From the NCBI GenBank assembly GCA_026003175.1, contig BPGT01000003.1:310001-374000 (forward strand): a stretch of DNA of 64,000 nt, read 5' to 3'. How positions within the stretch are numbered: position 1 is the stretch's first letter; the number at the start of each line of letters is the position of its first letter. Positions 7,123 to 62,101 of this stretch are shown here, one piece after another. The notes beneath the pieces are model-generated. The model had not been told where the DNA came from. It ran no database searches and saw nothing but the letters and a program-made list of their open reading frames with translations. This stretch comes from Armatimonadota bacterium (lineage in GTDB: Bacteria; Armatimonadota; HRBIN16). Made by a program: the position numbers and the translations under genes.

Positions 7123-7271
7123 CGCATCCAACGGGCCGCCACGAGGGTTGCCCCTATGTTCGGGGACACTGCGAAGCATGCGGCTGAAGCAGTCTCCTGC
7201 GGTGATTGGGTGTTTGCCAAAAAGCAATCCTGCAAAATCTTCCTGCTGTTTTACATATCAGCGTTTACCCT

Positions 7272-7457
7272 GAGGGTGTTCGAAATTGCTGGTTGAATGG
7301 ATAGATAACCTAACCCCCTTGCCCCCTTCCCTGCAAGGGAAGGGGGAACGCCCCTCTCCTCGTAGGAGAGGGGACGGGGGTGAGGTAAGGCAGGGATAGC
7401 AAGAACGCCTCTCTCCTTGCGCTACAACCAACTTCTCAACAATTCTCGAACACCCTC
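7272..7457 (+). repeat. 186-bp MITE-like element, copy 1
   Basis: First of four nearly identical 186-bp units (others at 9624, 44745, 49421). The ends are inverted repeats beginning GAGGGTGTTCGA. The flanks carry a 9-bp target duplication GTTTACCCT (7263-7271 and 7458-7466). The body has two adjacent hairpins: 11-bp stem 7322-7332/7336-7346 and 10-bp stem 7351-7360/7364-7373, enclosed by a near-complementary outer stem (CCTAACCCCC / GGGGGTGAGG). It encodes no protein. The end of the right duplication merges into the TTGACA -35 box of the next gene. Mobilisation in trans by the insertion sequence seen at 44171 is inferred from shared ends and target. Confidence 0.9.
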
Positions 7458-7465
7458 GTTTACCC

Positions 7466-7494
7466 TTGACATATCTGGCGGGTTGATATAGAAT
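7466..7494 (+). promoter_or_regulatory. sigma70-type promoter for the GntR/LacI regulator
   Basis: TTGACA (7466-7471), 17-base spacer, TAGAAT (7489-7494). It abuts the MITE target duplication. The predicted start of transcription near 7501 lies downstream of the first ATG of the frame (7493), which argues for translation from a later codon. Confidence 0.7.
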
Positions 7495-8618: not shown

Positions 8619-8741
8619 CGTTTCCCTGTGTGTGGCGGGGAAGGCGTCTTTACAGTGAAGTGTTACATAACAAACAGGCGTTCTGCACGATTGCTATAAC
8701 ACTGCAAGAAACAACAGACAAACATGAGGGAGGTTCCAATC

Positions 8742-9533
8742 ATGAAGCGCAACGGTTTTACGCTCATCGAACTGCTAGTCGTGATAGCGATTATCGCTAT
8801 CCTAGCGGCGATTCTGTTCCCGGTGTTCGCCCAGGCACGGGAGAAGGCGCGCATGACCGGCTGCCTTTCCAACACGAAGCAGATAGGTCTCGCACACAGC
8901 ATGTACATTCAGGACTACGATGAGACCTTTGTGTGGAACCCCTGGCCCGGCGGACCCGGCGGCGCACCCTGGTGCGGCAACCCCGACCAGCCTACCCTGA
9001 TATGGACGGGAGCGCTGATGCCGTACATCAAGAACAAGGGGCTGTTCCAGTGCCCGAGCATCAGCGCGGGTACTACTGAAAGCGCATGTCCCTGGTGCCC
9101 ACTGGCGGGTAACTGTCGGTATTACATGGCGAACTACGTTGAGGCGAACGGGCTGTTGCCGGACTACTGTATTACCTACGGTTTCAACGAGTACATCATT
9201 GGCAACCAGTGTTCGCCTCGCACGCTTGGGGCAATCGGCTCGCCGGCGTCGGTCGCTATCTTCGCCGATGCCATCGCCATGATGTGGGCGTCGTTCTACG
9301 GCATCACCGTCAACGGCGAAGGTCCCTTCTGGTGCGTTTCCGACCCCACCAGCGGCTGGTTGTACGGGCGTCCGGTGCACCATGTTACCGGTCCAGCCGC
9401 GAGACCGGTAGGAGCGATTAACTTCGTGTACGCTGACGGTCACGCCAAATCCGACAGAAACTTCTGGGCGGACGACTCCTACCCGGTGTACTGTCGTGGC
9501 GGTTATCGCGGCGCGCTGCTCTGGAAAGACTGA
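8742..9533 (+). CDS. DUF1559 prepilin-like protein 1
   Basis: A 263-residue protein with a type IV pilin-like leader, MKRNG followed by [20 protein letters not shown]; prepilin peptidase would cleave after the Gly and methylate the Phe. [12 protein letters not shown] follows, a segment I associate with Armatimonadota DUF1559 proteins. The C-terminus has the processing-associated DG motif ([12 protein letters not shown]), with a Pro where the H-X9-DG His is usual. ATG 8742 is set by GGGAGG 8 bases upstream. Such proteins are multiplied in Planctomycetes and Armatimonadota, and their exact function (pseudopilin or surface protein) is unknown. Cys, Trp and Tyr are abundant in the body. Confidence 0.9.
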
Positions 9534-9623
9534 GAAAGCAAGACACGCAGAGGGCGAGTCTCCCACTCGATCTATTTGCACAAAAAGATTTTTTCGGCTT
9601 ACCGGGAGGTTCGCCCTCCAGCT
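9534..9623. other. short intergenic stretch before MITE copy 2
   Basis: No gene. It contains GGGAGGTTCGCCCTCCAGCT (9604-9623), related to the CTCGCCCTCCAG repeats at 21303, 49278 and 49371. Its last nine bases (CCTCCAGCT) are the left target duplication of MITE copy 2. Confidence 0.5.
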
Positions 9624-9809
9624 GAGGGTGTTCGAGAATTGTTGAGAAGTTGGTTGTAGCGCAAGGAGAGAGGCGTTCTTGCTATCCCTGCCTTACCTCG
9701 CCCCCGTCCCCTCTCCTACGAGGAGAGGGGCGTTCCCCCTTCCCTTGCAGGGAAGGGGGCAAGGGGGTTAGGTTATCTATCCATTCAACCAGCAATTTCG
9801 AACACCCTC
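9624..9809 (-). repeat. 186-bp MITE-like element, copy 2 (inverted)
   Basis: Same element as at 7272 but inverted, with one visible base difference in the outer stem. Flanked by a perfect 9-bp duplication CCTCCAGCT (9615-9623 and 9810-9818). The right flank runs directly into TTGACA of the PEP-CTERM gene promoter. Confidence 0.9.
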
Positions 9810-9817
9810 CCTCCAGC

Positions 9818-9846
9818 TTGACAATTTCTGCAAACAGAGCGATAAT
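9818..9846 (+). promoter_or_regulatory. sigma70-type promoter for the PEP-CTERM gene
   Basis: TTGACA (9818-9823), 17-base spacer, GATAAT (9841-9846). The -35 box overlaps the last base of the MITE target duplication. Confidence 0.75.
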
Positions 9847-10905: not shown

Positions 10906-10966
10906 TAATGCAAAGTTATGCCCTTAACCTGTGGGCAAAAATCACCATAGGGAGGTGTGCACAGTC

Positions 10967-11902
10967 ATGAAGCGCGGCTTTACGCTGATTGAGCTGCTGG
11001 TGGTCATCGCGATTATCGCGATACTGGCAGCCATCCTCTTCCCTGTGTTCGCTCAGGCGCGTGAGAAAGCGCGGCAGGCGTCCTGCCTGAGCAACCTCAA
11101 ACAGATAGGCACGGGCGTGATGATGTACGTGCAGGACTACGACGAGACTTTCCCGTACAACAGGTTTGTTGGTAATGGGGGCGCAACGTGGTCTAACTGG
11201 AAGTACGGGATCTTCCCGTATGTAAAGAACCTTCAGGTGTATGAATGCCCCAACGCGAAGGCGCAAATCTCCCGAATGCTTGGCGACAACGTGAACGCCT
11301 GGAGAGGTTCGCCGATGGATGAGACCTGGGCTCACTGCCACCCCAGTTCGCCATGGCTGCGTAACGACCCGCTGTGCGATATCCCGCGCAGCCAGAACCT
11401 GTGGTTCCCTCGCGGCTACACAGTCAACGGTGCAGTGTTCAACCTGGCAGCCTACCAGTCTGGCTATGCAGATACTCCCAGGAAACTGGCGGACATCGAT
11501 GTGCCCGCTGAGACCATCTGGCTGCAAGACGGTAAGAACTACGAGCCTGATACCGGTCCCTGGGCGTTGGTTCGCTGCTGGTGTAATCCGCCTGGTGACC
11601 CGTTCGGTGGCGATGTGCCTGCGGCAGGGTCGCCTTGTCTGGATGGCAAGGTGCGCCAGTATGGCTGGCTGGTCAACCATCTGAAAGGCGTGCACTTCGT
11701 GTTTGCAGATGGGCACGTGAAGTGGACGCGGGTGCAGGGTGCAATTTCTAATAACCTGTGGAAGTGGACCTGCTTCCGGCGCCCGGGCGAGCGCACGTTC
11801 CCTTACGACGGCTACGATAACAACGTGTACAACTGCAGGCAGCCCGATCCGGATACCTGCCGCAACGTTGCACAGTTACTGGTGGCCGGCGAGTACAGGT
11901 AG
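10967..11902 (+). CDS. DUF1559 prepilin-like protein 2
   Basis: A 311-residue paralogue of the protein at 8742. It has the leader MKRG then [20 protein letters not shown], the [12 protein letters not shown] segment, and [20 protein letters not shown]. The C-terminal H-X9-DG motif is intact in [17 protein letters not shown]. Cysteine-rich loops (for example [10 protein letters not shown]) suggest disulphides in an extracytoplasmic protein. ATG 10967 is chosen over the upstream in-frame GTG-like codon because GGGAGGTG stands about 10 bases before it. It has its own promoter and a classic terminator, so it is a monocistronic unit. Confidence 0.9.
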
Positions 11903-44170: not shown

Positions 44171-44734
44171 GAGGGTGTTCGAAAAATCGCATAGACCCCA
44201 CACCCACCACCAACACACAAAACAACCGCTACCAGCCACCTGCACCACACCCACCATGTTCCACAACACAAACATGCCCCAACGCCACCACCTTCACGTG
44301 CGACCGCTGCTGACGTACCTGTGCCCCACGCAAATACTGCGCCAAAAACGGTGAGGCATACCCTACGCCCGTGCCATCCACAAACACACACGGCGTCTCA
44401 CGGGTCGGCGTCTCTGACGCGATGCCCTGCTGGGCAAGCCAAGTGAGCAGTTGGTGCAGGCGTTCGTCTGCAAGATGCTGCAACAGGCAGGGGTTGGTCG
44501 GGCAGCAGTTCTGGGGCGAGGGCGAACAGTAGGCGTCGGTAGGACACTCCCAGCAAGAGGAGGGTGAGGATGAGCGCTTCGGGGTATTTGTAGGGTCGTG
44601 CGCGGCGTGGGGGCAGAGGATGGAGTTGGCAGAAGCGTTGGACGATGGTGAAGATGACCTTCACCGACAGGGTAGTGAGTCTGCTTTGTGGTAGGTATCG
44701 TCGTTTCATGGGAACCGATTTTTTGAACACCCTC
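44171..44734 (-). mobile_element. internally deleted insertion sequence with intact ends and 9-bp target duplication
   Basis: The left end reads GAGGGTGTTCGAAAAATCG and the right end, inverted, GAGGGTGTTCAAAAAATCG. Perfect 9-bp duplications AGCCACCTG flank it (44162-44170, 44735-44743). Length is 564 bases, too short for a full transposase, so the centre is lost. Read on the minus strand, the duplicated target is CAGGTGGCT followed by TGACA, the same target layout as the MITE. A 9-bp duplication and DDE-type transposase fragments fit the IS4/IS5-like superfamilies. Confidence 0.88.
44229..44709 (-). pseudogene. transposase remnant (DDE type), frameshifted and truncated
   Basis: ATG 44709 opens MKRRYLPQSRLTTLSVKV, KYPEALILTLLLLGVSYR and FALAPELLPD. 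The reading then has to change frame near 44480 to continue as LQHLADERLHQLLTWLAQQG and CVFVDGTGVGYASPFLAQYL with QRSHVKVVALGHV. The Asp in VDGTG is probably the first residue of a DDE triad; the others are missing. It lies inside the 44171 element and cannot act by itself. Confidence 0.75.
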
Positions 44735-44744
44735 AGCCACCTGG

Positions 44745-44930
44745 GAGGGTGTTCGAAATTGCTGGTTGAATGGATAGATAACCTAACCCCCTTGCCCCCT
44801 TCCCTGCAAGGGAAGGGGGAACGCCCCTCTCCTCGTAGGAGAGGGGACGGGGGTGAGGTAAGGCAGGGATAGCAAGAACGCCTCTCTCCTTGCGCTACAA
44901 CCAACTTCTCAACAATTCTCGAACACCCTC
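44745..44930 (+). repeat. 186-bp MITE-like element, copy 3
   Basis: Sequence identical to copy 1. It starts one base after the right target duplication of the insertion sequence. The right flank CGCATAGCT|TGACA follows the target rule, but the left flank has no matching 9-mer, so its own duplication was lost, perhaps by recombination or by arrival of the neighbouring element. It ends 9 bases before the -35 box of the nitrogen operon. Confidence 0.9.
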
Positions 44931-44939
44931 CCGCATAGC

Positions 44940-44969
44940 TTGACAAAACATCACCCTCTGTGGTATAGT
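44940..44969 (+). promoter_or_regulatory. sigma70-type promoter of the porin-amt-PII operon
   Basis: TTGACA (44940-44945), 18-base spacer, TATAGT (44964-44969). The start codon is 200 bases downstream, leaving a long leader. Confidence 0.8.
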
Positions 44970-45008
44970 TAGTTACGTCAAGGATGTGACGAGGTCGTCC
45001 CCAGAGAA

Positions 45009-45050
45009 ACGGCAGACAGAGGCGTCGCAAGGGCGTGTCCGCCGTTTTTT
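45009..45050 (+). promoter_or_regulatory. terminator/attenuator in the nitrogen-operon leader
   Basis: ACGGC-A-GACA pairs with TGTC-C-GCCGT across an A/C mismatch (45009-45018, 45036-45045), and TTTTT follows (45046-45050). It lies about 75 bases after the promoter and 120 before the porin start. An upstream stem CGTCA/TGACG (44976-44991) and the GACG/CGTC repeat next to it could form alternative pairings. This is the layout of a riboswitch or attenuator, but I recognise no known aptamer. Confidence 0.6.
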
Positions 45051-45169
45051 GATTCGGTTACGCATTGCAGCGACCCCACTTTCACACGCAACGCCGCGAC
45101 CGGAGAGGCTTTCAGCCACTCCACGAGACTTCCCGAAAAACAAAACATCCCATTTCAGGAGGTACGTGT

Positions 45170-46213
45170 ATGCGACGTTTGGTTCTATGCGCGATGTGCG
45201 CACTGGGGGTCGTCGCTGCAGTGCATACGCAGGGCGCCCCTGAGGTGGAGGTCAACGGTCTGCTGGACGTATATGCGGGCTACAACTTCAACAACCCGCC
45301 ATCCGACGCCAACGGCACCAACCAGAATGTAGTACGCGCTTTCGACCAGCGTTCGGGCTCGCTGAGCCTTAGCCTGCTGGAGGTCACGCTCAAGAGCAAA
45401 CCCGAACCTGTCGGGTTCACATTGACCCTCACCACCGGTAAGACCGCCGACTTGGTGCATTACAACCCCGGCGAGGACAGGTTCAAACTGTTGCAGCAAG
45501 CCTTCCTCACCACCAGCGTCGGCAACTGGACGGTGGACGTAGGCAAGTTCGTGACTGCGCTGGGAGCAGAGGTGATAGAATCCAGCGCGAACGACAACTA
45601 CTCGCGCTCGTTGCCTTTCGTGTACGCCATTCCCTTCTATCATGCGGGCATCCGCGCATCTACCGGCCTAGGTTCAGGCTGGGGATTGCAGGCGATGCTG
45701 GTCAACGGATGGGACGTCACGGAAGACAATAACAGCAAAAAAAGCTTCCACGTAGCGATTAACTACGCCGACGAGCGGCTCAGCTTCGTGCAGAACGTAA
45801 TTACTGGCGACGAGGCGATTGCCCCTGCCAGCGGCGCGCGCACCGTGTGGGACACCGTGCTGTTCTATACGCTGGGAGCGGATAAGGTTGGGCTGAACTT
45901 CGACTACGGCGAAGACAAATCGGCGAGCGCGAAGTGGCTGGGGTACGCGGTGTACTACCGGCGCACTCTGCCCAGAGGGCGTGCGCTTGCTCTGCGCTAC
46001 TCCTATATGGACGATAAGGACGGATTCCGCACGGGCGTAGTGCAAAAGCTCAGCGAAGTCACCATCACCTACGAGTACCCCATCGGTTCCTCTGTGAGCC
46101 GCTTCGAGGTGCGCTTGGACAGCTCCAGTCAGCCTTTCTTCCTGAACGATGCCGGCGCAGCCGCCAAGAAGCAACAGGTGACTGTGATGTACTCGCAGGT
46201 TTACAGGTTTTAA
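45170..46213 (+). CDS. outer-membrane porin-like beta-barrel protein
   Basis: 347 residues with a signal peptide (MRRLVLCAMCALGVVAAVHT, cleavage near QGA) and alternating-residue beta strands over the whole length, ending in the C-terminal aromatic YSQVYRF typical of outer-membrane barrels. VEVNGLLDVYAGYNFNNP opens the barrel, and KFVTALGAEVIESSANDNYS with YAIPFYHAGIRAS are as in putative porins of the BBP2/OmpL-like kind. ATG 45170 has AGGAGG 8 bases upstream. Being first in an operon with amt and PII, it probably passes a nitrogen compound across the outer membrane (inference). Confidence 0.82.
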   Translation: MRRLVLCAMCALGVVAAVHTQGAPEVEVNGLLDVYAGYNFNNPPSDANGTNQNVVRAFDQRSGSLSLSLLEVTLKSKPEPVGFTLTLTTGKTADLVHYNPGEDRFKLLQQAFLTTSVGNWTVDVGKFVTALGAEVIESSANDNYSRSLPFVYAIPFYHAGIRASTGLGSGWGLQAMLVNGWDVTEDNNSKKSFHVAINYADERLSFVQNVITGDEAIAPASGARTVWDTVLFYTLGADKVGLNFDYGEDKSASAKWLGYAVYYRRTLPRGRALALRYSYMDDKDGFRTGVVQKLSEVTITYEYPIGSSVSRFEVRLDSSSQPFFLNDAGAAAKKQQVTVMYSQVYRF

Positions 46214-46226
46214 GGAGGGCACAACC

Positions 46227-47738
46227 ATGCGAACGATACGGGCTTTGCTGGCAAATCGCGTAACGCTGTTTGGTGGGCTTTTCGCCCTGCTGGGTCTCGC
46301 CACGTTGAAAGCGTGGGCGCAGGACAACCCTTCTGTGGAGGAGGCTCTGGCGAACCACAAGATGCTGCTGGACACCATCTGGGTGATGGTCGCGGCGTTT
46401 CTGGTGTTCTGGATGCAGGCGGGTTTCGCCTACGTTGAAGGAGGTCTCACCCGTGCCAAGAACACCAACAACATCATGATGAAGAACCTGATGGATTTCA
46501 GCATCGGTTCGGTGGCGTTCTGGGCGGTGGGCTTCACGCTCATGTTCGGCGACGGCAACGCCTTTGTGGGCATGAAGGGATGGTTCCTTGCCGGACCGGA
46601 CAATTCACCGGCAACCGGCGACGCCTATCGGGGGGTATATAGCGCGCTGAACTGGACCGGCGTACCTCTGTTCGCCAAGTTTATGTTCCAGCTGGTGTTC
46701 GCCGCCACTGCCGCCACTATCGTGTCCGGTGCAATGGCAGAGCGCACGAAGTTCAGTGCGTATCTTGTCTACAGCTTTGTGGTCAGCGCGCTCATCTACC
46801 CGGTAGTGGGACACTGGATTTGGGGAGGCGGCTGGCTGGCGAAGCTGGGCATGTGGGATTTCGCTGGCTCCACTGTGGTACACTCTACCGGAGGGTGGCT
46901 TGCGCTGGTGGGTGCGATCATGCTGGGTCCGCGCATCGGCAAATACTCTAAAGAGGGCAAGCCTCTGGCGATACCTGGGCACTCTTTGCCAATGGCAGCG
47001 CTGGGCGTGTTCATCCTGTGGCTGGGCTGGTTCGGCTTTAACCCCGGCTCCACGATGGCAGCAGATGCCTCCATCGCACAGATTGCCCTCACCACCAACC
47101 TGGCAGCAGCAACAGGTGCTATCGGCGCGCTGTTTACCTCATGGGTGCTGCTGAAGAAGCCCGATGTTAGCATGACCCTCAACGGAGTGCTGGCGGGACT
47201 GGTAGCCATCACCGCGCCCTGTGCGTTTGTGTCACCCCTCTCCGCCGCGATCATCGGCGTGCTGGGAGGTATCGTGGTGGTTATCTCCGTGTTGCTGCTG
47301 GACCGCGCGAAGGTGGACGACCCGGTAGGCGCAGTATCGGTACACGGTGTCTGCGGCGCGCTGGGCACGCTGTGCCTCGGTTTGTTCGCGCAGGAGGGAT
47401 ACGCTCCGGCGAACACTACCGGAAACGGTTTGCTGTTTGGCGGCGGGTTGAAACTGCTTACCGCACAGGCTATCGGCGTCGGAGCGGTATTGCTGTGGTG
47501 CATCGCCACCGGTGTCATCTTGTTCGGTCTGCTCAAAATAACCACAGGCATCCGCGTGTCGCCAGAAGAAGAGATAGAGGGGCTGGACATCGGCGAGCAC
47601 GGCATGGCGGCATACCCCGACTTCGTGCTGGCAACGCCTGGGCAGTTCAGTGTGACAGGTGGCACACGCTCCCCTTCCGCGCCGAGCACGCCAGTTACAG
47701 CGCCTCTGCCCAAACCTTCATCGGAAGCGAGTACATAA
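46227..47738 (+). CDS. amt: ammonium transporter (Amt/MEP/Rh family)
   Basis: 503 residues. A signal-like first segment ends at LKAWAQ, then eleven TM helices. Family motifs include FWMQAGFAYVEGGLTRAKNT, the DFAGSTVVHSTGGWLALVGA (conserved Asp and the first pore His), GWFGFNPGS, and DDPVGAVSVHGVCGALGTL with the second pore His. The twin-His pore suggests an active ammonium/ammonia channel. It transports ammonium across the inner membrane and is gated by PII. Start 46227 follows the porin by 13 bases with AAGGAGG. The C-terminal tail is Ser/Pro-rich and longer than in E. coli AmtB. Confidence 0.96.
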   Translation: MRTIRALLANRVTLFGGLFALLGLATLKAWAQDNPSVEEALANHKMLLDTIWVMVAAFLVFWMQAGFAYVEGGLTRAKNTNNIMMKNLMDFSIGSVAFWAVGFTLMFGDGNAFVGMKGWFLAGPDNSPATGDAYRGVYSALNWTGVPLFAKFMFQLVFAATAATIVSGAMAERTKFSAYLVYSFVVSALIYPVVGHWIWGGGWLAKLGMWDFAGSTVVHSTGGWLALVGAIMLGPRIGKYSKEGKPLAIPGHSLPMAALGVFILWLGWFGFNPGSTMAADASIAQIALTTNLAAATGAIGALFTSWVLLKKPDVSMTLNGVLAGLVAITAPCAFVSPLSAAIIGVLGGIVVVISVLLLDRAKVDDPVGAVSVHGVCGALGTLCLGLFAQEGYAPANTTGNGLLFGGGLKLLTAQAIGVGAVLLWCIATGVILFGLLKITTGIRVSPEEEIEGLDIGEHGMAAYPDFVLATPGQFSVTGGTRSPSAPSTPVTAPLPKPSSEAST

Positions 47739-48095
<357 letters not shown>

Positions 48096-48113
48096 GAGCG
48101 AGACATCCCCAAC

Positions 48114-48145
48114 GCAGGCTCCACCCTGCACAGGGTGGAGCCTGC
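48114..48145 (+). terminator. strong hairpin after the PII gene
   Basis: 15-bp perfect stem GCAGGCTCCACCCTG with its complement and a 2-base centre, 18 bases after the PII stop. No U-tract follows, so it may stabilise the mRNA end or act as a weak terminator. Confidence 0.6.
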
Positions 48146-48237
48146 TGGCTGCAACACAGCCGTCGCGGCACCCTTTACAGCATTCCACTGCTTAGGGTAG
48201 TATTTTCATACGCTAACCACTAAGGAGGGGGTGCACG

Positions 48238-49080
48238 ATGCTCACAACAGAGCAAGTAGAACAGTATCATCGTGACGGCTACACGGTAGCACGCGGCCTC
48301 TTCAGCAGGCAGGAAGCCGAGTTCTACATTGACCACTACATGCGCCTGCGCGAATCGGGTTCCTACCCGGGTGACTTTCAAGGGGTAGACCCCACCAGTA
48401 ACGACCCGCTCAAACGCTATCCCCGCATGATTCACATGCACCGCTGGGACGAGGTCAGCCTGAAGTGGATGATTGATCCGCGGCTCAACGCATGTATGAC
48501 CGCTTTGCTGGGCAAGGAACCGTATGCGGTGCAGACTATGCTGTACTTCAAGCCGCCCGGTGCACGCGGACAGGCATTGCATCAGGATAACTTCTACCTG
48601 CGTGTGCAGCCTGGCACATGCATTGCTGCGTGGATGGCGCTGGACTATTGTGATGAGGAGAACGGCTGCCTGATGGTGGTACCGGGCACGCAAGACTTAC
48701 CTATCCTGTGCACTGTCCCCGCTGATACTACCCAGAGCTTTACCGACATCACCGTGCCCGTTCCGAAAGACATGCCCATCGTGCCCGTTGTGATGGAGCC
48801 GGGGGATGTGCTGTTTTTCAACGGCTCGCTAATACATGGCAGCAACCCCAACCGCTCGCGTGACCGCTTCCGCCGTGCACTTATCGGGCACTACGCGGTA
48901 GGTGATGCCGAGAAAATCGCACGATTCTATCATCCTGTGCTGCGTATGGATGGCACCGTCGTAGAACTGGGCGTTAGCGAAGGGGGCGGCCCCTGCGGCG
49001 TGTGGGTAGAGCGGGATGGCAAGCCTGTGGTGGAGGTGATTGACCCGCAGCACAGCAGCGAACAGCCCGAGCATGAGTGA
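48238..49080 (+). CDS. phytanoyl-CoA dioxygenase (PhyH) family protein 3
   Basis: 280 residues. VEQYHRDGYTVARGLFSRQE at the N-terminus, the HxD in ALHQDNFYLRVQPGTCIAAW, GCLMVVPGTQDLPIL, and the distal His in SLIHGSNPNRSRDRFRRALI with the co-substrate Arg. Fe(II)/2-oxoglutarate oxygenase of unknown substrate. ATG 48238 has GGAGGGGG 8 bases upstream. It stands alone, 140 bases after PII and behind a hairpin, so not clearly part of the nitrogen operon. Confidence 0.88.
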   Translation: MLTTEQVEQYHRDGYTVARGLFSRQEAEFYIDHYMRLRESGSYPGDFQGVDPTSNDPLKRYPRMIHMHRWDEVSLKWMIDPRLNACMTALLGKEPYAVQTMLYFKPPGARGQALHQDNFYLRVQPGTCIAAWMALDYCDEENGCLMVVPGTQDLPILCTVPADTTQSFTDITVPVPKDMPIVPVVMEPGDVLFFNGSLIHGSNPNRSRDRFRRALIGHYAVGDAEKIARFYHPVLRMDGTVVELGVSEGGGPCGVWVERDGKPVVEVIDPQHSSEQPEHE

Positions 49081-49188
49081 AGACAGCCCCATACATCCCC
49101 CTTCCCCCGATGTTACGGGAGAAGAGGGGGATTCTTGTATTCAGTAGCGCGTCAAGCCTGGGTCTTGCTGCAGGTCGTGTTCCAACGT

Positions 49189-49249
49189 GTCATTGCGAGC
49201 CGCGAAGCGGCGAAGCCATCTCCTGCGCTCACGAGGGGGATTGCTTCGG
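49189..49249. repeat. REP-like repeat (CATTGCGAG...GATTGCTTCG type)
   Basis: GTCATTGCGAGCCGCGAAGC ... GGGGGATTGCTTCGG has the two-armed layout of a widespread palindromic repeat; a decayed relative is at 26633. Confidence 0.5.
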
Positions 49250-49277
49250 GTGCTGGCGACCCTCAAAAGGACACCAA

Positions 49278-49307
49278 CGGCTCGGCAGAAGCCTCGCCCT
49301 CCAGAGG
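49278..49307. repeat. 30-bp CTCGCCCTCCAGAGG repeat, copy a
   Basis: Differs by one base from the 30-mer at 49371 and is related to 21303. The two copies lie 63 bases apart in a 545-bp intergenic region (49081-49626) that holds only repeats and the MITE, with no gene I can support. Confidence 0.55.
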
Positions 49308-49370
49308 AACGGTTGTGTAAACAGGGCTGGAGGGCGGACCTCCGGGTGAGCCGAACCTCATATGCCCCAA

Positions 49371-49400
49371 CGGCTCGGCAGGAGCCTCGCCCTCCAGAGG
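49371..49400. repeat. 30-bp CTCGCCCTCCAGAGG repeat, copy b
   Basis: See copy a at 49278. Partly self-complementary (GGAG ... CTCC), suggesting a small hairpin. Confidence 0.55.
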
Positions 49401-49420
49401 GTGAAGGCAAGAATCAGGCT

Positions 49421-49606
49421 GAGGGTGTTCGAAATTGCTGGTTGAATGGATAGATAACCTAACCCCCTTGCCCCCTTCCCTGCAAGGGAAGGGGGAACGC
49501 CCCTCTCCTCGTAGGAGAGGGGACGGGGGTGAGGTAAGGCAGGGATAGCAAGAACGCCTCTCTCCTTGCGCTACAACCAACTTCTCAACAATTCTCGAAC
49601 ACCCTC
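49421..49606 (+). repeat. 186-bp MITE-like element, copy 4
   Basis: Same sequence as copy 1. Flanked by a 10-bp direct repeat GAATCAGGCT (49411-49420, 49607-49616), 9-bp rule plus one chance base. The right flank again runs into TGACA, here not a functional promoter but the region just after the stop codon of a minus-strand gene. Confidence 0.9.
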
Positions 49607-49626
49607 GAATCAGGCTTGACAGACTA

Positions 49627-50151
49627 CTATCGCGGCAGGTACCTCTCGAAAATCACGATGTCTCCGCGCACGACTTTCCCCTTGAACACAAATGGTTTCG
49701 CCGGGTCGCCAGCCACGAAGCGCACCAGAATCTCGTCCGGGTTGCCGTCCTGCACGCCGGCAGCGCGGTTGTCCTTCGCCACCACTGTCACCTCTCCGCG
49801 CACGCGCCTCCCACCGCGAGGCGACACTACCGACAGCACCGCCAGCCCTTTGAACTCCGCCACCTTTTCGGCATCGGTGATGCGCTGGCCATACACGGTC
49901 AGTCTCACAAGGCTAATGGTCGCCTCCGTGCGCTCCTCACGGTTCACCGCGGTGAAGCGGAAAAAGCCCTGCAACGTTACCCTCTGGGTGTCGTTGTGGA
50001 TAATCTGCTTCACCTCATACCGGAAGACGCCGGGCTTGCCGTTCTCGTTTACCGCGGTGCCCCAGCCGGCGGAGCCTTTCACCGTGTAGGTCTGCGCAAA
50101 CGCTGTTGTGGCTATCGCCAGAACGCCTAACCAGAGCCAATTGCGTAACAT
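49627..50151 (-). CDS. secreted protein of unknown function
   Basis: 174 residues with a clear signal peptide (MLRNWLWLGVLAIATTAFAQ) and a beta-rich, basic mature part (TYTVKGSAGWGTAVNENGKP, GFFRFTAVNREERTEATIS, RRVRGEVTVVAKDNRAAGVQ). ATG 50151 is chosen because AGGAGGGGG lies about 6 bases upstream; the longer frame only adds residues before the signal peptide. No named family recognised. Its stop is 10 bases from the target duplication of MITE copy 4, so that insertion came close to the coding end without breaking it. Confidence 0.75.
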   Translation of the reverse strand: MLRNWLWLGVLAIATTAFAQTYTVKGSAGWGTAVNENGKPGVFRYEVKQIIHNDTQRVTLQGFFRFTAVNREERTEATISLVRLTVYGQRITDAEKVAEFKGLAVLSVVSPRGGRRVRGEVTVVAKDNRAAGVQDGNPDEILVRFVAGDPAKPFVFKGKVVRGDIVIFERYLPR

Positions 50152-50229
50152 ATTTACCCCCTCCTTGCGCACGGTAAATTGTTCTTCCGTCTGGCGTAGA
50201 CGTTGCCGGAGGGGAAATGTTCAAACAGT

Positions 50230-51552
50230 TCAGGTTTGCACGCGATATGGCTTGAGCAGCTCCGCGAGGTCGTGAGTGACCTCTGCTACCACCAGAATGC
50301 CATCCGTTGTATACTCCGCGCTGTGTACGCGCCCCAGCTCGTAGCACTGAGCCAGCAGGTTACTCTGCGCATAGGGCAGGCGCACCCGTATCGGCTGCAA
50401 CAGCGACTGCAGGGTAGCGAGGATATGGTTCATCAGCTCAGGGATGCCTTCCGCTTTCAGCGCGGAGATGTACACCGCGTTAGGTGTTTCCGCCACCAGC
50501 TGGCGCAGGCGATAGGTGTCTTTGACCAGGTCCGCTTTGTTGTATGCGGTGATGATAGGTTTGTTGTGCGCACCCAGCTCCGCCAGCACGTTCATGACCG
50601 CCTGTCGCTGGATCTCCAGCTGTGGATGGCTGGCATCCACCACGTGGATCAGGAAATCCGCCTCGGTCACCTCCTCCAGGGTGGCGCGAAACGCGGCGAC
50701 CAGCGAGTGCGGCAGGTTGCGGATGAAGCCAACGGTATCCGACAGCAGCACCCCCCAGCCGTCGGGCAGCACGATACGACGCACGGTAGGATCCAGCGTG
50801 GCGAAAAGGTGCTCATCGGTGTAGATATGTGCGCCCGAGAGAGTGTTCAGCAGGGTGGATTTGCCCGCGCTGGTGTACCCCACCAGTGCCCCGAACGGGA
50901 AGGGTAACCTGCGCCTGCCCTGTCGCTGCTGACTGCGTTGGCGAGCCACCTGTTCCAGCTCGCGCTGCAGGTCGGCAATGCGCTCACGAACCTTGCGACG
51001 GTCCTGTTCCAGTTTGGTTTCGCCCGGTCCGCCGCGCACACCGATATGCCCCGCTTGCTGTTCGAACTTGGTATACACGCTCATCAGACGCGGCAGTTCA
51101 TAGGTTAATCGCGCTAGCTCCACCTGCAGTTTTCCCTCACGGGTGTGGGCGCGTTGCGCGAAAATCCGCAGGATGAGCTCAGTGCGGTCTATTACGCGCG
51201 TTTGCAGGATGTCTTCGAGGTTGCGCTGCTGCAAAGGCGTCAGGTCATCGTCAACAATAACCACATCGGCATTGACCTCGCGCACCTGTGGGAAGAGCAG
51301 TTCCGCCTTGCCCCTGCCGATGAAGGTGGCGGCGTCTGGGCGAGTGCGCCGCTGTCGGCTCTCGCCGACCACCTCCAGACCGGCGGTGTCGCACAGAGCG
51401 CGTAGCTCTTCTTCCACATAACTGTCCAGTTCGGGGTCTGGGTTCACGTAGATGAGGAAGGCACGTTCGCGCTCCTGCACCGGATGGAGCCGGGCAGCGG
51501 GGTGCTGTAGTTCAGTTAATTCAACCGACGAACTGATGTTTCGTTGTGGCAT
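50230..51552 (-). CDS. hflX: ribosome-associated GTPase HflX
   Basis: 440 residues. The N-terminal HflX domain is visible in ATFIGRGKAELLFPQV and DVVIVDDDLTPLQQRNLE, with the linker GVRGGPGETKLEQDRRKVRE. The G domain has G1 LVGYTSAGKSTLLNTL, G3 LLSDTVGFIRNLPHSLVAAF and G4 YNKADL, with G5 near YISALKAEG. HflX splits stalled or heat-damaged ribosomes. ATG 51552 (GAGGTG 8 bases upstream) is preferred over a TTG at 51591. C-terminal domain present and intact. Confidence 0.95.
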   Translation of the reverse strand: MPQRNISSSVELTELQHPAARLHPVQERERAFLIYVNPDPELDSYVEEELRALCDTAGLEVVGESRQRRTRPDAATFIGRGKAELLFPQVREVNADVVIVDDDLTPLQQRNLEDILQTRVIDRTELILRIFAQRAHTREGKLQVELARLTYELPRLMSVYTKFEQQAGHIGVRGGPGETKLEQDRRKVRERIADLQRELEQVARQRSQQRQGRRRLPFPFGALVGYTSAGKSTLLNTLSGAHIYTDEHLFATLDPTVRRIVLPDGWGVLLSDTVGFIRNLPHSLVAAFRATLEEVTEADFLIHVVDASHPQLEIQRQAVMNVLAELGAHNKPIITAYNKADLVKDTYRLRQLVAETPNAVYISALKAEGIPELMNHILATLQSLLQPIRVRLPYAQSNLLAQCYELGRVHSAEYTTDGILVVAEVTHDLAELLKPYRVQT

Positions 51553-51736
51553 CGTTGCCTGCACCTCTTCGGTGGAGATTCGGGATGGCAAACTACCTTG
51601 ACCAGAGTTTGACTCGTTGGCACTTCCATCCTAACAGACCCGTTCCCCATTCGTCAAGCGGTCAGAGCCACCGCGCACCCCACACGACCTGCCAGTTTGC
51701 CGCGAGGTCTACCGAGCCTCCCCCACACCCAAAAGG

Positions 51737-53344
51737 CTAAATCGGTGCATCCGCTTCCATCTGCGCCACGAAGTAGGCAGGGTTCAGCCGCTCGCCGGTG
51801 GCGTACTCCAGCGCTTCCTCCCAGGGCAACGATGCGCCAGTAGAGAACACCTTCTGCTTCAGGAACTTGCCGACCTTGGGGCTGGAAACCAGTGCGTCTT
51901 TTGGTTCGCCAGCGAGCACCTTTGTACGTAGTACGTGCACCAACTGCGATGCCTCCATCTCACCCAGAATGTAGTTCTGGTAGTAAACTGGCGCAAGCGC
52001 GATGTGTATCTTCGCCGCCCAGTCGGGAGCGTTGCGCCCTTCGGGCTTGCGTAGCCACTGGTATTTCTCTACCAGCTGCCACCAGAGGCTGTTCAGGTCG
52101 CCATCGGGGTCGGCGTACATAGCGCGTTCGAAGTGCGTCATCACCAGCACCCAGCGGGTGAAGACGATGAGCTGCGCCTGCATCTCCTCGATAGCGGGAC
52201 GCGCCACCTGTTGCGCCTGCTCGTTGGGGATGCCCATGTAGCGTTTCAGCCACTCGGCGTTGCGGTGCATCCTGCCGAACAGCATGGCGATGGCTTCGGT
52301 GCTGAGCGTGTGCGCGGGGGTGCGCAGCAGGTAGGGCAGGGAGCGGTCGATATAGTAGTCGTACACCGCATGCCCCAATTCGTGCAACATGGTGCCCATC
52401 CATCGCTCGCTGGGGCGCAGGTTGCATAATACGCGCACATCGCCCTCGCGGTCGATGTCAATGCAGAAGGCATGTTGACTCTTGCCCTCCTTCTCGTAGA
52501 GGTCACTGCGCTCCAGTATCGGCTCCACCGGCAGACCGACGGCGGCGTAGAAGGCACGCGAAATCGCCTCGATGTCTTTGTCCTCGAACAGCGGGTTCAG
52601 GTCTACCTCGCCGGGTGGGGGACTCTGGAAGAAGGGGTCCGTATAGTGCCACGGACGCAAGTCTTCTACCGACACCCCGAAACGATGGGCAAGGCGTTCA
52701 TCCTGTCTCTGCTTGTATCGGCGAAACGGTTCGTTGCTGAGCTGGTGCAGCTGCTCCAGCAGGGCGAACAGGCGGTTTTCATCCAGCTCCTGCAGTTCCA
52801 GCTGCATGGCGTAGTAGTCGCGGAAGCCCAGCCGTCGCGCCTCACGGTTACGGATATGCACCAACCCCCGTACCGCATCCGCCACGCGCTCACCAATCTG
52901 CTTGCTGGCCTCCCACGCCTCGCGTCGCTCCTCGCTGTCGTTGCTCTTCTGCAATACATCGCGCAGGGTATTGTCGCTCACGCGCTCGCCGCGAAAGAGT
53001 GCGCGATAGGTATTGTATTCCTTCTCTATCTCCTTCTCGCGCTGCACGATTTCGTCAATGGTCTTTTCCGACATCTGGTGCCCGCGATACTCGTCCAGCA
53101 GTAGTTTATGCTGGCGGCGCAGCAGAGGGTCGGGGATGCTGTCGTTGGGGATGCTCTGCAGGAAGCGGTACTCGTCCTCGCGGGCGTATATCTTCATCAG
53201 CTGCGCCTGCAGCGCTGCGCCGCGCTCGAAAGCCTCCTCGCTGCCTGTGACGTTCGCCTCCCACCATGCCAGCGCAGTCTCTCTGGCAAGCGGACGAACC
53301 TCCTCCAGATGTTTTTGCAGAAACTGCTCAAAGCGTTCTTGCAT
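51737..53344 (-). CDS. zinc metallopeptidase, M2/M3-like (HEXXH gluzincin)
   Basis: 535 residues, almost all helical. The zinc motif is GTMLHELGHAVYDYYI near residue 320, with the downstream Glu in LSTEAIAMLFGRMHRNAEWL. NREARRLGFRDYYAMQLELQ and the N-terminal helices resemble the angiotensin-converting-enzyme-like (M2) and oligopeptidase (M3) clans. No signal peptide, so likely a cytoplasmic oligopeptidase. Single gene, divergent from the UbiD-PAP2 pair. M2 versus M3 needs a profile search. Confidence 0.83.
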   Translation of the reverse strand: MQERFEQFLQKHLEEVRPLARETALAWWEANVTGSEEAFERGAALQAQLMKIYAREDEYRFLQSIPNDSIPDPLLRRQHKLLLDEYRGHQMSEKTIDEIVQREKEIEKEYNTYRALFRGERVSDNTLRDVLQKSNDSEERREAWEASKQIGERVADAVRGLVHIRNREARRLGFRDYYAMQLELQELDENRLFALLEQLHQLSNEPFRRYKQRQDERLAHRFGVSVEDLRPWHYTDPFFQSPPPGEVDLNPLFEDKDIEAISRAFYAAVGLPVEPILERSDLYEKEGKSQHAFCIDIDREGDVRVLCNLRPSERWMGTMLHELGHAVYDYYIDRSLPYLLRTPAHTLSTEAIAMLFGRMHRNAEWLKRYMGIPNEQAQQVARPAIEEMQAQLIVFTRWVLVMTHFERAMYADPDGDLNSLWWQLVEKYQWLRKPEGRNAPDWAAKIHIALAPVYYQNYILGEMEASQLVHVLRTKVLAGEPKDALVSSPKVGKFLKQKVFSTGASLPWEEALEYATGERLNPAYFVAQMEADAPI

Positions 53345-53539
53345 CGGTGCCTCCTGTGTGTTCAGATTCCTTCAGTGAACGCCCAGGCTCCATCTCCACG
53401 AGCAGGTCAACATCGCTCTCACCCGAACCTCACCTTTGTATCAGCCCTGTAACATTTTACCATTTTCATTTGTTGCATCCAACCCTTTGCACAAGCCTGT
53501 GCTTTCTGGTACATTTATGCCGAATATGAGGTGAAACCG

Positions 53540-54991
53540 ATGGCGTATCGCGATTTTCAACATTTTCTGGACGTTCTGCAGCAGCAAGGGGAACTGAAGC
53601 GCATCTCCTATCCCCTGGACCCCGTGCTGGAGATTACCGAAGTTGCCGACCGCGTGATGAAGTCGGGCGGTCCAGCCCTGCTGATAGAAAAGCCGAAGGG
53701 CTACGAGATCCCTGTCGCGATTAACACCTTCGGCTCGCGCAGGCGGATGAGTCTGGCGCTGGGGGTGAACGACTTCGAGGAGATTGCCCGCGAGATAGAG
53801 GAGTTGCTCAAGCCCGAAATCCCCGAACGCCTTATTGAGAAGATAGGCATGTTGCCCAAATTGATGCGCTTGGCGGACATGCCTCCGAAAAAGCGAGGCG
53901 GTGATGGCTTATGTCAGCAGGTTGTCTTGACCGGTGACGAGGTGGATATCGAGAAACTGCCCCACCTGAAATGCTGGCCCGAAGATGGTGGCCGCTACAT
54001 CACCCTGCCGCTGGTGTTCACGCACGACCCCAACACGGGCAAGCGCAACGTGGGTATGTATCGCATCCAGATACTAAACCGCGACACCGCCGCCATGCAC
54101 TGGCAAATGCACAAAGTGGGCGCGGAGCATTACCGCGTCGCGGAGGAGAAGCAGCAGCCGATACAGGTCGCGGTTGCGTTAGGGGGCGACCCTGCGCTCA
54201 CTTACTCTGCCACCGCACCCCTGCCGCCCGGCATCGACGAAATGATGTTCGCCGGATTCCTGCGCCGACAGCCGGTAGAACTGGTTAAGTGCAAGACTAT
54301 CGACGTATGGGTTCCTGCCGATGCTGAAATCGTCCTGGAAGGCTACATCAACCCCGGCGAGCGGGTCATGGAAGGTCCTTTTGGCGACCACACGGGCTAC
54401 TATAGCCTTGCCGACATGTACCCGGTGTTCCACGTGACCGCCGTCACGCACCGCAAGAATCCTGTGTATCCCGCCACGATTGTCGGTCGCCCGCCGATGG
54501 AGGACGCCTGGCTAGGCAAAGCCACCGAGCGCATCTTTCTGCCCCTGATCAAGTTGATGGTTCCCGAGATAGTGGACATCAACCTGCCGGTGGAGGCGTG
54601 CTTCCATAATCTGGCGATTGTGTCTATCAAGAAGCGGTATCCGGGACACGCCTTCAAGGTGATGAACGCGCTGTGGGGGCTGGGGCAGCTGATGTTTACC
54701 AAAATCATTATCGTGGTGGACGACGATGTGAACGTGCAGGACATGTACGAGGTGATATGGCGGTTCACCAACAACATCGACCCGGAGCGCGATATGCTGG
54801 TTACGCGCGGACCGATAGACGTGCTAGACCACGCCTCACGCATGTTAGGCTTTGGCTCCAAGATTGGCTTCGACGCCACGCGCAAGTGGGCATCCGAGGG
54901 TTTCACGCGCGAGTGGCCCGGGGTGATTCAGATGTCCCCCGAGGTCAAACAGCGCATCGACCAGATTTGGCAGCAGCTGGGGTTGGGCTAG
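53540..54991 (+). CDS. UbiD family (prenyl-FMN-dependent) decarboxylase
   Basis: 483 residues. UbiD landmarks are YRDFQHFLDVLQQQGELKRI, PVAINTFGSRRRMSLALGV, RNVGMYRIQILNRDTAAMHW, and GYINPGERVMEGPFGDHTGY containing the catalytic Glu region, with HRKNPVYPATIVGRPPMED. UbiD enzymes decarboxylate aromatic or alpha,beta-unsaturated acids using prenylated FMN; here possibly quinone synthesis. ATG 53540 is preferred to GTG 53531 because GAGGTGA then lies 6 bases upstream. The stop touches the PAP2 start (TAGATG), so both are co-translated. No UbiX gene is in the window. Confidence 0.92.
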   Translation: MAYRDFQHFLDVLQQQGELKRISYPLDPVLEITEVADRVMKSGGPALLIEKPKGYEIPVAINTFGSRRRMSLALGVNDFEEIAREIEELLKPEIPERLIEKIGMLPKLMRLADMPPKKRGGDGLCQQVVLTGDEVDIEKLPHLKCWPEDGGRYITLPLVFTHDPNTGKRNVGMYRIQILNRDTAAMHWQMHKVGAEHYRVAEEKQQPIQVAVALGGDPALTYSATAPLPPGIDEMMFAGFLRRQPVELVKCKTIDVWVPADAEIVLEGYINPGERVMEGPFGDHTGYYSLADMYPVFHVTAVTHRKNPVYPATIVGRPPMEDAWLGKATERIFLPLIKLMVPEIVDINLPVEACFHNLAIVSIKKRYPGHAFKVMNALWGLGQLMFTKIIIVVDDDVNVQDMYEVIWRFTNNIDPERDMLVTRGPIDVLDHASRMLGFGSKIGFDATRKWASEGFTREWPGVIQMSPEVKQRIDQIWQQLGLG

Positions 54992-55588
54992 ATGGCAGAA
55001 GCCGACCGTGCCCTCTTCTTCTGGATTAACCGGGGATGGCATCACCCCTGGCTGAACGACCTGTTCGGCGCGTTCACCTGGCTGGGGGTGGGATGGGTGC
55101 AGATTCTGCTTGCTCTGCTGGTGTGGTGGGCGGCGAGGCGATACGGTGACAGGGCGTGGGCTGTCCTGTACCGGTCAGCATTCGTTCCTCTGCTGGCGGC
55201 GTGGCTGGCTTCGGGTGTGCTGGTTCAGGTGCTGAAGCGGATATGGGATCGTCCCCGTCCTTCCAACCTCGCGGGCGCGCTGGTGGCAGCAGACGAGCGC
55301 ATCTTCAGCAAATCGTTCCCTTCTGGACACTCCTGCACGACCGCCGCGATGGCAATGGTATTGACGGTCGTCTTCTGGAAGCGGTACCCGGGCGTGGTGC
55401 TGGGAGCATGGGTGTTCACCTTGCTGGTGATGCTGTCGCGGGTGTATCGTGGGGTGCATTATCCTTCGGACGTGGTAGCGGGCGCGCTGATTGGGGCGAT
55501 GTGCGGGTATCTGGCAGTATTGTGGTGGAGGCAGAGAGCGGGCTCTCTCCAGACGAAGGCTGAGCAGGCAACAAGCGGGCATCAATGA
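54992..55588 (+). CDS. PAP2-family membrane phosphatase
   Basis: 198 residues with about five TM helices and all three PAP2 motifs: KRIWDRPRPSN, SFPSGHSCTTAAM and SRVYRGVHYPSDVVAGA (catalytic His). Such enzymes dephosphorylate undecaprenyl pyrophosphate or phosphatidic/phosphatidylglycerol phosphate at the membrane. Coupled to the UbiD-like gene, which could point to isoprenoid quinone precursors or polyprenyl carriers (inference). Confidence 0.92.
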   Translation: MAEADRALFFWINRGWHHPWLNDLFGAFTWLGVGWVQILLALLVWWAARRYGDRAWAVLYRSAFVPLLAAWLASGVLVQVLKRIWDRPRPSNLAGALVAADERIFSKSFPSGHSCTTAAMAMVLTVVFWKRYPGVVLGAWVFTLLVMLSRVYRGVHYPSDVVAGALIGAMCGYLAVLWWRQRAGSLQTKAEQATSGHQ

Positions 55589-55620
55589 AGTTTTCAACAG
55601 CACGTTATTTGGAGGTGCCG

Positions 55621-58600
55621 ATGCGAGCGGCTGTACTCATCCTGCTGTGCATGCAGTGGGCAAGCGTTCTTGTGGCGCAGACCCTGACAGTGCAGAACCC
55701 CTTCCTCCATATCCGCGTGGAGGGCGGCTGGCTGCGCGAGCTGCACGTAGACCCCTCCGGCAAGGGCAGTTATCTCCCTTCGCGCTTCCTCGGGCTGGCG
55801 GCAGGTGATGACGCCGTGCTGCATATCCCGCCGACAGGCGAAGGGCGCGTGCAAGCGGAACGGCTGGTATGGCGCGGTGCTACCCTGCTCATTCCTCGCG
55901 AAACCCTCGCCACCGCCGAGCGCAGGGAGTCTCTACGCCTGGAACCCGGGCATACGCTGGCGCAGGAGTTTGCACTGAGCGAGCCGGGGCTGACTGCAGT
56001 GGAGGTCAACTGTCCCACGTGGTATACCGCCGATAGCGGCATGACGTTGAGCCTGTGGAGACTGGAGGATGGCTCGTGGCGCGAGATCGCTCGCCAGCGT
56101 TTCGCCAACGTACAGGATAACGGTTGGGTTCGGCTGGTGGTAGATCCTCAGCCTGCTGGTCGCTACCGTGTACAAATGAGCGAGCCAGTGGGCACTATCG
56201 GCTGGTGGAGCACGCCGGAGCGACGTTTGCCGCAATCCACCCCCCTGCGCGACGGACAACCGGCGAATGAAGGCGAACGGTGCATGCGCCTGAGGCTGTA
56301 CGACACACGGCGTGTGGATGTGGCTTACACGCTGTCGCGCAACCGGTTGCAGATAACGGTGCAGGGAGGCGAAGTCAAGGAATGGGTATTGCTCACCCCT
56401 TGGAAGGCGGAAGGCACCGATACCACCGACCCACAGCGCATCCTCTTCCGACGGTTCCTCTCGGACACAGGCAGGTATCTGCCGGTGGAGCAGCTGAAAC
56501 GGCGCGACGGATTAGAATGGGGCATGGAAGCGAACGACTGGCTGGAGATGACCGGCAACGGCACCGCCGACTATCGCTGGCGCAACCTGAACGGCGAACT
56601 GCGCTGGCAGATGACCTCCGACCGCATGAGGCTGAGCCTGCGCACCGGAGGGACGCTTACGCTAGAGGTGCTTCCCCACAATGAACGACGCTTACCCGCT
56701 TTCTATCCGAGATTCTTCAGCTCCGACGCACGTCTGGATGCTCTGCTCGATCGGTTTTACTATGAGCGTGCCTTCAGCTGGCCTCTCGCACCGGCGTTCG
56801 CGGACTGGATGGAGTGGCTGGCGCGCACGCGCTATTGGGTGGCTCTGCCCGGGTTGCACGCACGCGAGCGAGCGCACCTGTTGCACTACAAGATGGATGA
56901 GGACGGCTACGTATACACCTGGGGCGACCGCAAGGAGTGGCCCTTCCCCGACAACGAGAAGTACGATGCCCGCCACTTCACCACCAACGCCAACTTCATC
57001 CTGGGTTGCTGGCGTTATTATTGCTGGACGGGTGACAAAGAGTTCCTCCGACGCAACATGGCACGCCTCCGCCGTGCGATGGAGTGGCAGCTGGGGGAAT
57101 GTCAGGGCGCGGAAGGGTTGTTTGTAAACAACAGCCCCGACCACGACGGAACTACCAGAGGCGTGCATTCCAACTACTGGGACGACATCCCGTTCGGACA
57201 TCTTTCCGCCTACGAGAACATCTATTTCTATGCCAGCCTGCTGGCGATGGCGGAGTTGGAAACGGTAATGCGGGGTGTAAGGATAGCGGATGCACCGTCC
57301 TCCCGTCCGCCTGCATACTACCGCCGTCTGGCTCAGCAGGTGAAACGTCGTTACAACGAAACGTTCTGGGACGAAGTGGCGGGACGGTACATCGGCTGCG
57401 TGGACATTCACGGCGATCGCCACGATTACGGTTTCACCTACGTCAACACCGAGGCGCTGGCGTACGGATTGGGCGACACCGAGAAGGCAAAGCGCGTCTA
57501 CCACTGGATGGAGAAGGAGCCTACCGCTACCGGTAAGCCCGATACGTACTTCTTCGAGTTCGCGCCTCGCGTCAACACGCTGGACTGTTCGGGATGGTGG
57601 TATCTGGAGGGCAAGGCGGAGATACCCTCTCAGCCCTTTGACACCCACTGCGAGAACGGCGGCGCTATCCTGTATACCTCTTTCTTTGACCTGATGGCAC
57701 GGCACCGCTGGCTCGGCGCAGACAACGCCTGGCAACGGCTGTGGGGTATCCTGCGACGTTACGACCAGCCCGACCGCCTCTGCGGAGGCAATCCCCTGTA
57801 CTTCGGCGGAAAGCCCTATGTCAACGGCTGGGCAGTGGGCACTGACATCCCCTTCCCTGAAAGCGGACTGGTTCCTGCCTTCTTCCTGTACGGCTTCCTG
57901 GGGGTGGAAGCGCATGTGGACGGCTTGCATATCTCCCCGAAACTGCCGAAAGAGTTGACCATCGCTGGCGTGCGCAACCTGTTCTATCGGGGGCTGCTGC
58001 TGGACTTGCGCGTGCAAAAAGAGAGCAAAGGCTATCTGCTCACCCTTGCTTGTTCCCAACCGGGGCATCGCTTCCGTGTACAACAACATGTGCGCGAGGG
58101 CGAGACGTGGGTCTTTCGCCAGCCACCTGCGCCGGTGCGTTTCCCGGATATTTCCAGTGTAGTTGGTACGGACTGGCTCGCCGAGTGGATATGGCTCCCC
58201 GGTCAGTGGGAGACGCCAAACCTCACCGTCTACGCACGGCACACTTTCGACCTTCCCGCCAAGCCCATGGAGGCTACGCTGTGGATTACCGCTGACAACC
58301 GCTACCGGTTATGGGTGAACGGGGTCTTCGTCGGCGAAGACGGCGATTTTCGCAAAGCGGAGCGGTACGATGTCGCCCGTCTGCTGAAACCGGGCAAAAA
58401 CGTGATTGCCGTGCAGGCAGAGAACGGCGACGGACCCGGTGGCTTGCTGGCTGAGATGCGCCTGCGTTTGGCAGGGGGACAAACCAGATGGGTTATCACC
58501 GATGCTGGCTGGAAGGTCACCGACCAGCCTGCGCCAAAATGGTACACCCCATCTGCCGACGACAGCGGGTGGCTCCATGCCGAGTCGCGCGGCAGGGCGC

Positions 58601-58632: not shown

Positions 58633-58685
58633 AGCAGGTTGTGGTAAGATTAAAGTGCGCTATCTCAGCAGGAACATGCTTATCG

Positions 58686-60128: not shown

Positions 60129-60186
60129 AAAAGTTCACCTTACAGTGATACAAAGTTCCCCGTATCTGTTCACAGGGTGGGTGCTC

Positions 60187-60221
60187 GGGTGTGGGGTCTA
60201 TGCGATTTTTTGAACACCCTC
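60187..60221 (-). repeat. solo end of the 44171 insertion sequence family
   Basis: Read on the minus strand: GAGGGTGTTCAAAAAATCGC and then ATAGACCCCACACCC, matching the left end of the 44171 element with one difference over 35 bases. No second end nearby. It lies between the convergent MATE and MTA-phosphorylase genes, 2 bases from the latter's stop. Confidence 0.75.
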
Positions 60222-60223
60222 AG

Positions 60224-62040: not shown

Positions 62041-62101
62041 AGAACAATAAAGTTAAGCCCTTCACCGGTGAGGGCAAATGGAGAAAAGGAGGCACACAGT
62101 C

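Follow-up and report, generated by a model that had tools for sequence, protein, structure and literature searches.

The 186-bp MITE described here is very probably a non-autonomous element that rides on an IS of the ISAae1 group, the transposase of which would insert at the upstream border of sigma-70 promoters. Comparison of its insertion sites indicated that the target most likely comprises a -10 box as well as TTGAC, and that this rule is a property of the IS family by which the MITE is probably mobilised. The element was recognised in a window of 64,000 nucleotides, i.e., the whole stretch of DNA that was analysed (contig BPGT01000003.1, positions 310,001 to 374,000), from a bacterium of the Armatimonadota.

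Four copies of the MITE, each of 186 bp and 99-100% identical, are present in the window. Copy 1 (7272-7457, plus strand), which is bounded by the terminal inverted repeats GAGGGTGTTCGA...TCGAACACCCTC, is flanked on the left (7263-7271, plus strand) and on the right (7458-7466, plus strand) by the target duplication GTTTACCCT, and the -35 box of an intact sigma-70 promoter (7466-7494, plus strand; TTGACA-17-TAGAAT) begins with the final T of the right duplication. Copy 2 (9624-9809, minus strand) lies between duplications of CCTCCAGCT (9615-9623 and 9810-9818) and adjoins a promoter at 9818-9846 (plus strand; TTGACA-17-GATAAT). Copy 4 (49421-49606, plus strand) lies between duplications of GAATCAGGCT (49411-49420 and 49607-49616), with TTGACA at 49616-49621 and no -10 box (2/6 matches). 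These three duplications are all exact, and TGACA directly follows each of them. Copy 3 (44745-44930, plus strand) has the right flank CCGCATAGCT (44931-44940), again directly followed by TGACA and adjoining a promoter at 44940-44969 (plus strand; TTGACA-18-TATAGT), and its left side shows no match. The first-pass annotation had reported four copies, three of them with perfect duplications before TGACA and the fourth (copy 3) with the same right flank, as well as good promoters at 7466, 9818 and 44940, all of which was confirmed.

A search of the genome (4.1 Mb, 7 contigs) for the MITE ends revealed 99 left and 104 right ends, i.e., approximately 100 nearly identical copies. Among the 99 elements parsed with both ends, 91 are 186 bp long and 50 are identical to the consensus; 87 copies of 186 bp carry at most two changes, and the family is young. 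The element shows the hallmarks of a MITE in its length of 186 bp, its inverted repeats (GAGGGTGTTCGA/TCGAACACCCTC) and its exact duplications of 9-12 bp, which were observed at 75 distinct sites (9 bp at 59 sites, 10 bp at 11, 11 bp at four and 12 bp at one).

TGAC adjoins one side of the duplication at 62 of these 75 sites, against approximately 0.5 site by chance; the density of TGAC elsewhere in the genome (2,376 per 800,000 strand positions) gives an expectation of approximately 0.6% for TGAC on either side. The edge of the duplication on the GTCA side is fixed, and the opposite edge shifts with the length of the duplication. When 84 junctions were aligned on TGAC, the -35 consensus was T89 T95 G100 A95 C99 A60/T35 (in percent). 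Thus, the rule first proposed, N7CT followed by TGACA, holds genome-wide for TTGAC, whereas its last base is A at 60% and T at 35% of junctions and the C of its CT occurs at 55%. Both orientations of the element occur, with a modest excess of the left end toward the promoter (55 vs 29, p 0.006). Copies that do not abut TGACA were looked for genome-wide, and a small minority was found: among the other 13 of the 75 sites, six differ from GTCA at a single base (GGCA at three, GTCT at two and GTCC at one), and most of the other seven are inner junctions in tandem or composite arrays.

In addition to the -35 box, a -10 box with at least four of six matches to TATAAT is found at a spacing of 16-18 bp at 69 of the 84 junctions, and one with at least five matches at 53. 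When spacings from 5 to 35 bp were scanned, 27 of the boxes with at least five matches were located at 17 bp and 25 at 18 bp, with no more than two at any other spacing; recognisable -10 boxes are lacking at approximately one site in six. Sixty-four of the 84 junctions are intergenic with the next downstream gene on the same strand, mostly less than 200 bp away. Control TTGAC sites were drawn from 400 kb of other genome stretches and 524 kb around element loci, and a -10 box with at least five matches accompanies 49 of 72 TTGAC sites at insertions (68%), compared with 5 of 483 coding sites (1%), 5 of 72 other intergenic sites (7%) and 9 of 33 sites within the 200 bp upstream of genes (27%), where coding and intergenic follow crude gene calls (coding fraction 0.74 to 0.84) and p ranges from 1e-4 to 1e-46 across the three control sets. 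The insertions are therefore distinguished both by a fixed distance to the -35 box and by a matching -10 box above the controls, and the far lower frequency of -10 boxes at matched TTGAC sites indicated that the target is the whole sigma-70 promoter and not the TTGACA string alone. The earlier proposal that the element is led to promoter -35 boxes by its target rule is strongly supported by this comparison of approximately 80 junctions with control TTGAC sites.

The main rival explanation, which we consider possible though on balance unlikely, is that the transposase reads the DNA string TTGAC alone, 9-12 bp from the cut, and that other insertions have been lost by selection. Few insertions are found inside genes, as this explanation would have it, and part of the -10 enrichment may arise because TTGAC upstream of genes is promoter-rich. 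Moreover, the TTGAC consensus at insertions is tighter than that of natural promoters in which the -10 box is good, as only 9 of 64 of these contain an exact TTGAC, a figure that also implies that a strong -35 box is needed. However, intergenic TTGAC sites without a -10 box should be equally harmless, yet the frequency of boxes at insertions far exceeds that in both the intergenic and the gene-upstream controls (68% vs 7% and 27%); the control counts thus indicate that the pattern is explained neither by TTGAC alone nor by survival outside genes. Weaker -35 boxes are also hit when the -10 box is good (TTGCCT, and TTGCCA, TTGGAA and TTGATT in G299, a genome from another phylum). A mixed model, which combines sigma at the -35 box with a sequence preference, fits best. 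Consensus promoters free of insertion number 19 in the 400-kb control and approximately 195 genome-wide, and 53 are occupied; by a rough estimate, about a fifth of the consensus promoters of the genome are occupied.

As the final base of the duplicated block is also the initial T of TTGACA, both the -35 and -10 boxes are left intact by the insertion, with 8-11 bp of native upstream DNA retained and the DNA farther upstream replaced by the element. In species of the same genus, orthologous empty sites consist of the intact promoter and a single copy of the target. The target is regenerated by insertion, and thus the same promoter can be hit again to give tandem elements; at L046, L062 and L099, every junction of the tandem elements carries one and the same duplication. 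We propose that, in placing an element at the upstream border of a sigma-70 promoter, the transposase would cut one strand just within the initial T of TTGAC(A/T) and the second strand 9-12 bp farther upstream, and that the promoter (TTGAC plus a -10 box at 17-18 bp) would fix the site for either orientation of the element. The promoter may be recognised through the RNA polymerase/sigma bound to it in combination with the -35 sequence, and the benefit to the element may be safe insertion outside genes.

The likely mobiliser is an IS of 1,012 bp that has 14 terminal bases (GAGGGTGTTCGAAA) in common with the MITE and shows the same duplications and promoter targets, for example, CTTGAATCTCT followed by TGACATACTAAGTACTTTACATTAGAAT. 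Four intact copies of 1,012 bp and several frameshifted copies of 989 bp are present in the genome, and the window contains an internally deleted copy (44171-44734, plus strand; 564 bp, duplication AGCCACCTG) that adjoins the GTCA of a leftward promoter (TTGACA-17-TAGAAT). From the ends, duplication and target that the two have in common, we infer that this IS most likely mobilises the MITE, which would be a non-autonomous passenger of an ISAae1-group IS with an IS5-family-like DDE_Tnp_1 transposase. The IS protein, of approximately 324 aa, matches DDE_Tnp_1 (PF01609) above the Pfam cut-off in the case of the G000 protein; this domain is present in all five aligned transposase homologues, and the DDE triad D123, D202 and E260 is invariant in the homologues. 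Mutator-type Pfam models gave no match to the five homologues at E<=1. The NCBIfam IS5 model NF033579 scored 39 bits, below its equivalog cut-off of 140, and membership in the IS5 family is therefore assigned solely through similarity to ISAae1, which makes the protein a divergent relative. ISAae1 of Aquifex aeolicus, the nearest annotated relative found (31.6% over 89%, E 6e-23), is likewise an IS of approximately 1.0 kb with a transposase approximately 32% identical over 89%, and it differs in its distant sequence and in its outermost end bases; no published target rule for ISAae1 was found in the literature. An AlphaFold model of the transposase was set aside (pLDDT 41). The classical IS5 of Escherichia coli, the DDE transposase of which is likewise broadly of the IS4/IS5 kind, is known for insertions near promoters, but its target is a 4-bp YTAR/CTAG and not a promoter-anchored duplication of 9-12 bp.

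Comparison with other genomes suggested that the target rule is old, as it recurs in other Armatimonadota, partly in another phylum and in A. aeolicus. The duplications of IS copies adjoin TGAC in the congeneric genome G004 (L182-L187), and the rule is obeyed by the IS in G009 and in three genomes from another family of the same phylum (G268, G228 and G237). MITE copies in G002, G004 and G007 also follow the rule, and one of them, L206, occupies the site of L057. In G299, the 1.54-Mb genome from another phylum, the transposase is 31% identical and at least 17 nearly identical IS copies of 980 bp are found (L193-L199 and L279-L288). There, TTG adjoins the duplication and a good -10 box is present at about half of the sites, with a looser -35 box; this genome is A+T-rich, and the control sites described above were drawn from the genome that contains the window. 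The three ISAae1 copies of A. aeolicus (G301) abut TTGACA, TTGACT and TTTACA, with a clear -10 box at the TTGACA and TTTACA copies.

The core of the MITE is a G+C-rich double hairpin (element positions 36-115; 7307-7386 in copy 1, plus strand). It matches (81-91%) a G+C-rich palindromic repeat of approximately 80-90 bp that this genome and relatives from the phylum also contain outside the MITE, alone or in short tandem arrays (L042, L267 and L273), and the core thus looks captured. The suggestion in the first-pass annotation that the hairpins act as insulators against upstream transcription or change control is unsupported. That the element has been kept or spread as a hairpin insulator or terminator, shielding promoters from read-through, is very improbable: the hairpins are predicted to fold strongly as RNA (z of approximately -7 to -8) and the site is just upstream of promoters, but a terminator scan detected no terminator-like site in the MITE, an Rfam scan of the MITE gave no match, and the copies are near-identical, recent and found in both orientations and in tandem arrays. 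In addition, the IS copies have the same target, which is therefore a property of the transposase and not of the hairpin.

Insertion upstream of promoters is already known as a class. TnGBS and ISLre2 (p-MULT 3) and ISKra4 (p-MULT 4) of the Mutator superfamily insert 15-17 bp upstream of the sigma-A -35 box, they are proposed to contact the initiation complex of RNA polymerase, and elements of this type with symmetric ends are found in both orientations (Guerillot et al., 2014; PMC3942029). Like the elements described here, they are DDE elements with insertion fixed relative to the promoter, upstream of the -35 box; they differ in distance (15-17 bp from the -35 box vs 8-11 bp here, with the duplication touching the box), in transposase (Mutator vs an unrelated DDE_Tnp_1/IS5-like enzyme) and in the involvement of a MITE here, none being described in the portions of that paper drawn on (PMC3942029). 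The first-pass statement that no such preference had been described thus stands for MITEs, for which none was found, and has to be given up for promoter-upstream targeting in general; beyond the Mutator work, the open-licence literature yielded no promoter rule for a MITE or an IS5-type element. Correia elements are small, palindromic, present in many copies and often located upstream of genes, and they differ in that they carry promoters and, in the portions of the source cited, are not reported to target the -35 box of a resident promoter (PMC10969869). As far as the open literature shows, three features are new, namely the lineage of the transposase, the involvement of a MITE and the spacing of 8-11 bp with a duplication that touches the -35 box. 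Promoter-guided transposition would then not be peculiar to Mutator-type transposases, with an IS5-like lineage achieving it at base-pair precision at the -35 box. In uncultured bacteria, the insertions may provide a natural means of mapping strong promoters, the small, simple transposase is suited to testing how transposons sense the transcription machinery, and the system offers a lead for placing DNA beside, not into, promoters. A further proposal, on which we are evenly divided, is that the ISAae1-group transposase docks on the RNA polymerase holoenzyme, probably on sigma region 4 at the -35 box, and inserts at the upstream edge. In that case, machinery-guided promoter targeting of the Ty3 type would have evolved independently a second time in bacteria and would be conserved in both Armatimonadota and Aquificota.

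Copies without a duplication, which look like exceptions, were partly traced to composites, to the L045/L090 recombinants and to an inversion in the window, and not to different target rules. The IS adjoins the MITE at L062 and L081, and L035, L095, L098 and L102 represent dimers and MITE-IS pairs that have moved as a whole. The flanks of L045 and L090 are swapped (AGAGGCTAT / AGGTGCCTT), and these loci look like the products of reciprocal recombination between element copies; L044 (G000:C1:796291-797033) is a four-MITE array, the inner copies of which are without the first element bases (junction AGATGGTTCGAAATTG). In the window, the mate of the copy 3 duplication (CCGCATAGCT) was found inverted at 60222-60231 (minus strand), beside a 45-bp IS end (60177-60221). 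It is probably the trace of a 15.3-kb inversion between element ends (44931-60231), which would explain the missing duplication of copy 3. Composites and recombinants of this kind (L035, L045/L090, L095, L098 and L102) might suggest that the whole pattern is an artefact of copies spread by recombination or duplication with the promoter carried along, which is almost certainly not the case, being refuted for most copies by the exact duplications, each of them unique, at 75 distinct flanks and by the empty orthologous sites in relatives. The window also contains three 193-bp direct repeats (8737-8929, 10959-11151 and 62097-62289), which are diverged (68-77%), lie inside overlapping ORFs and are likely paralogous genes.
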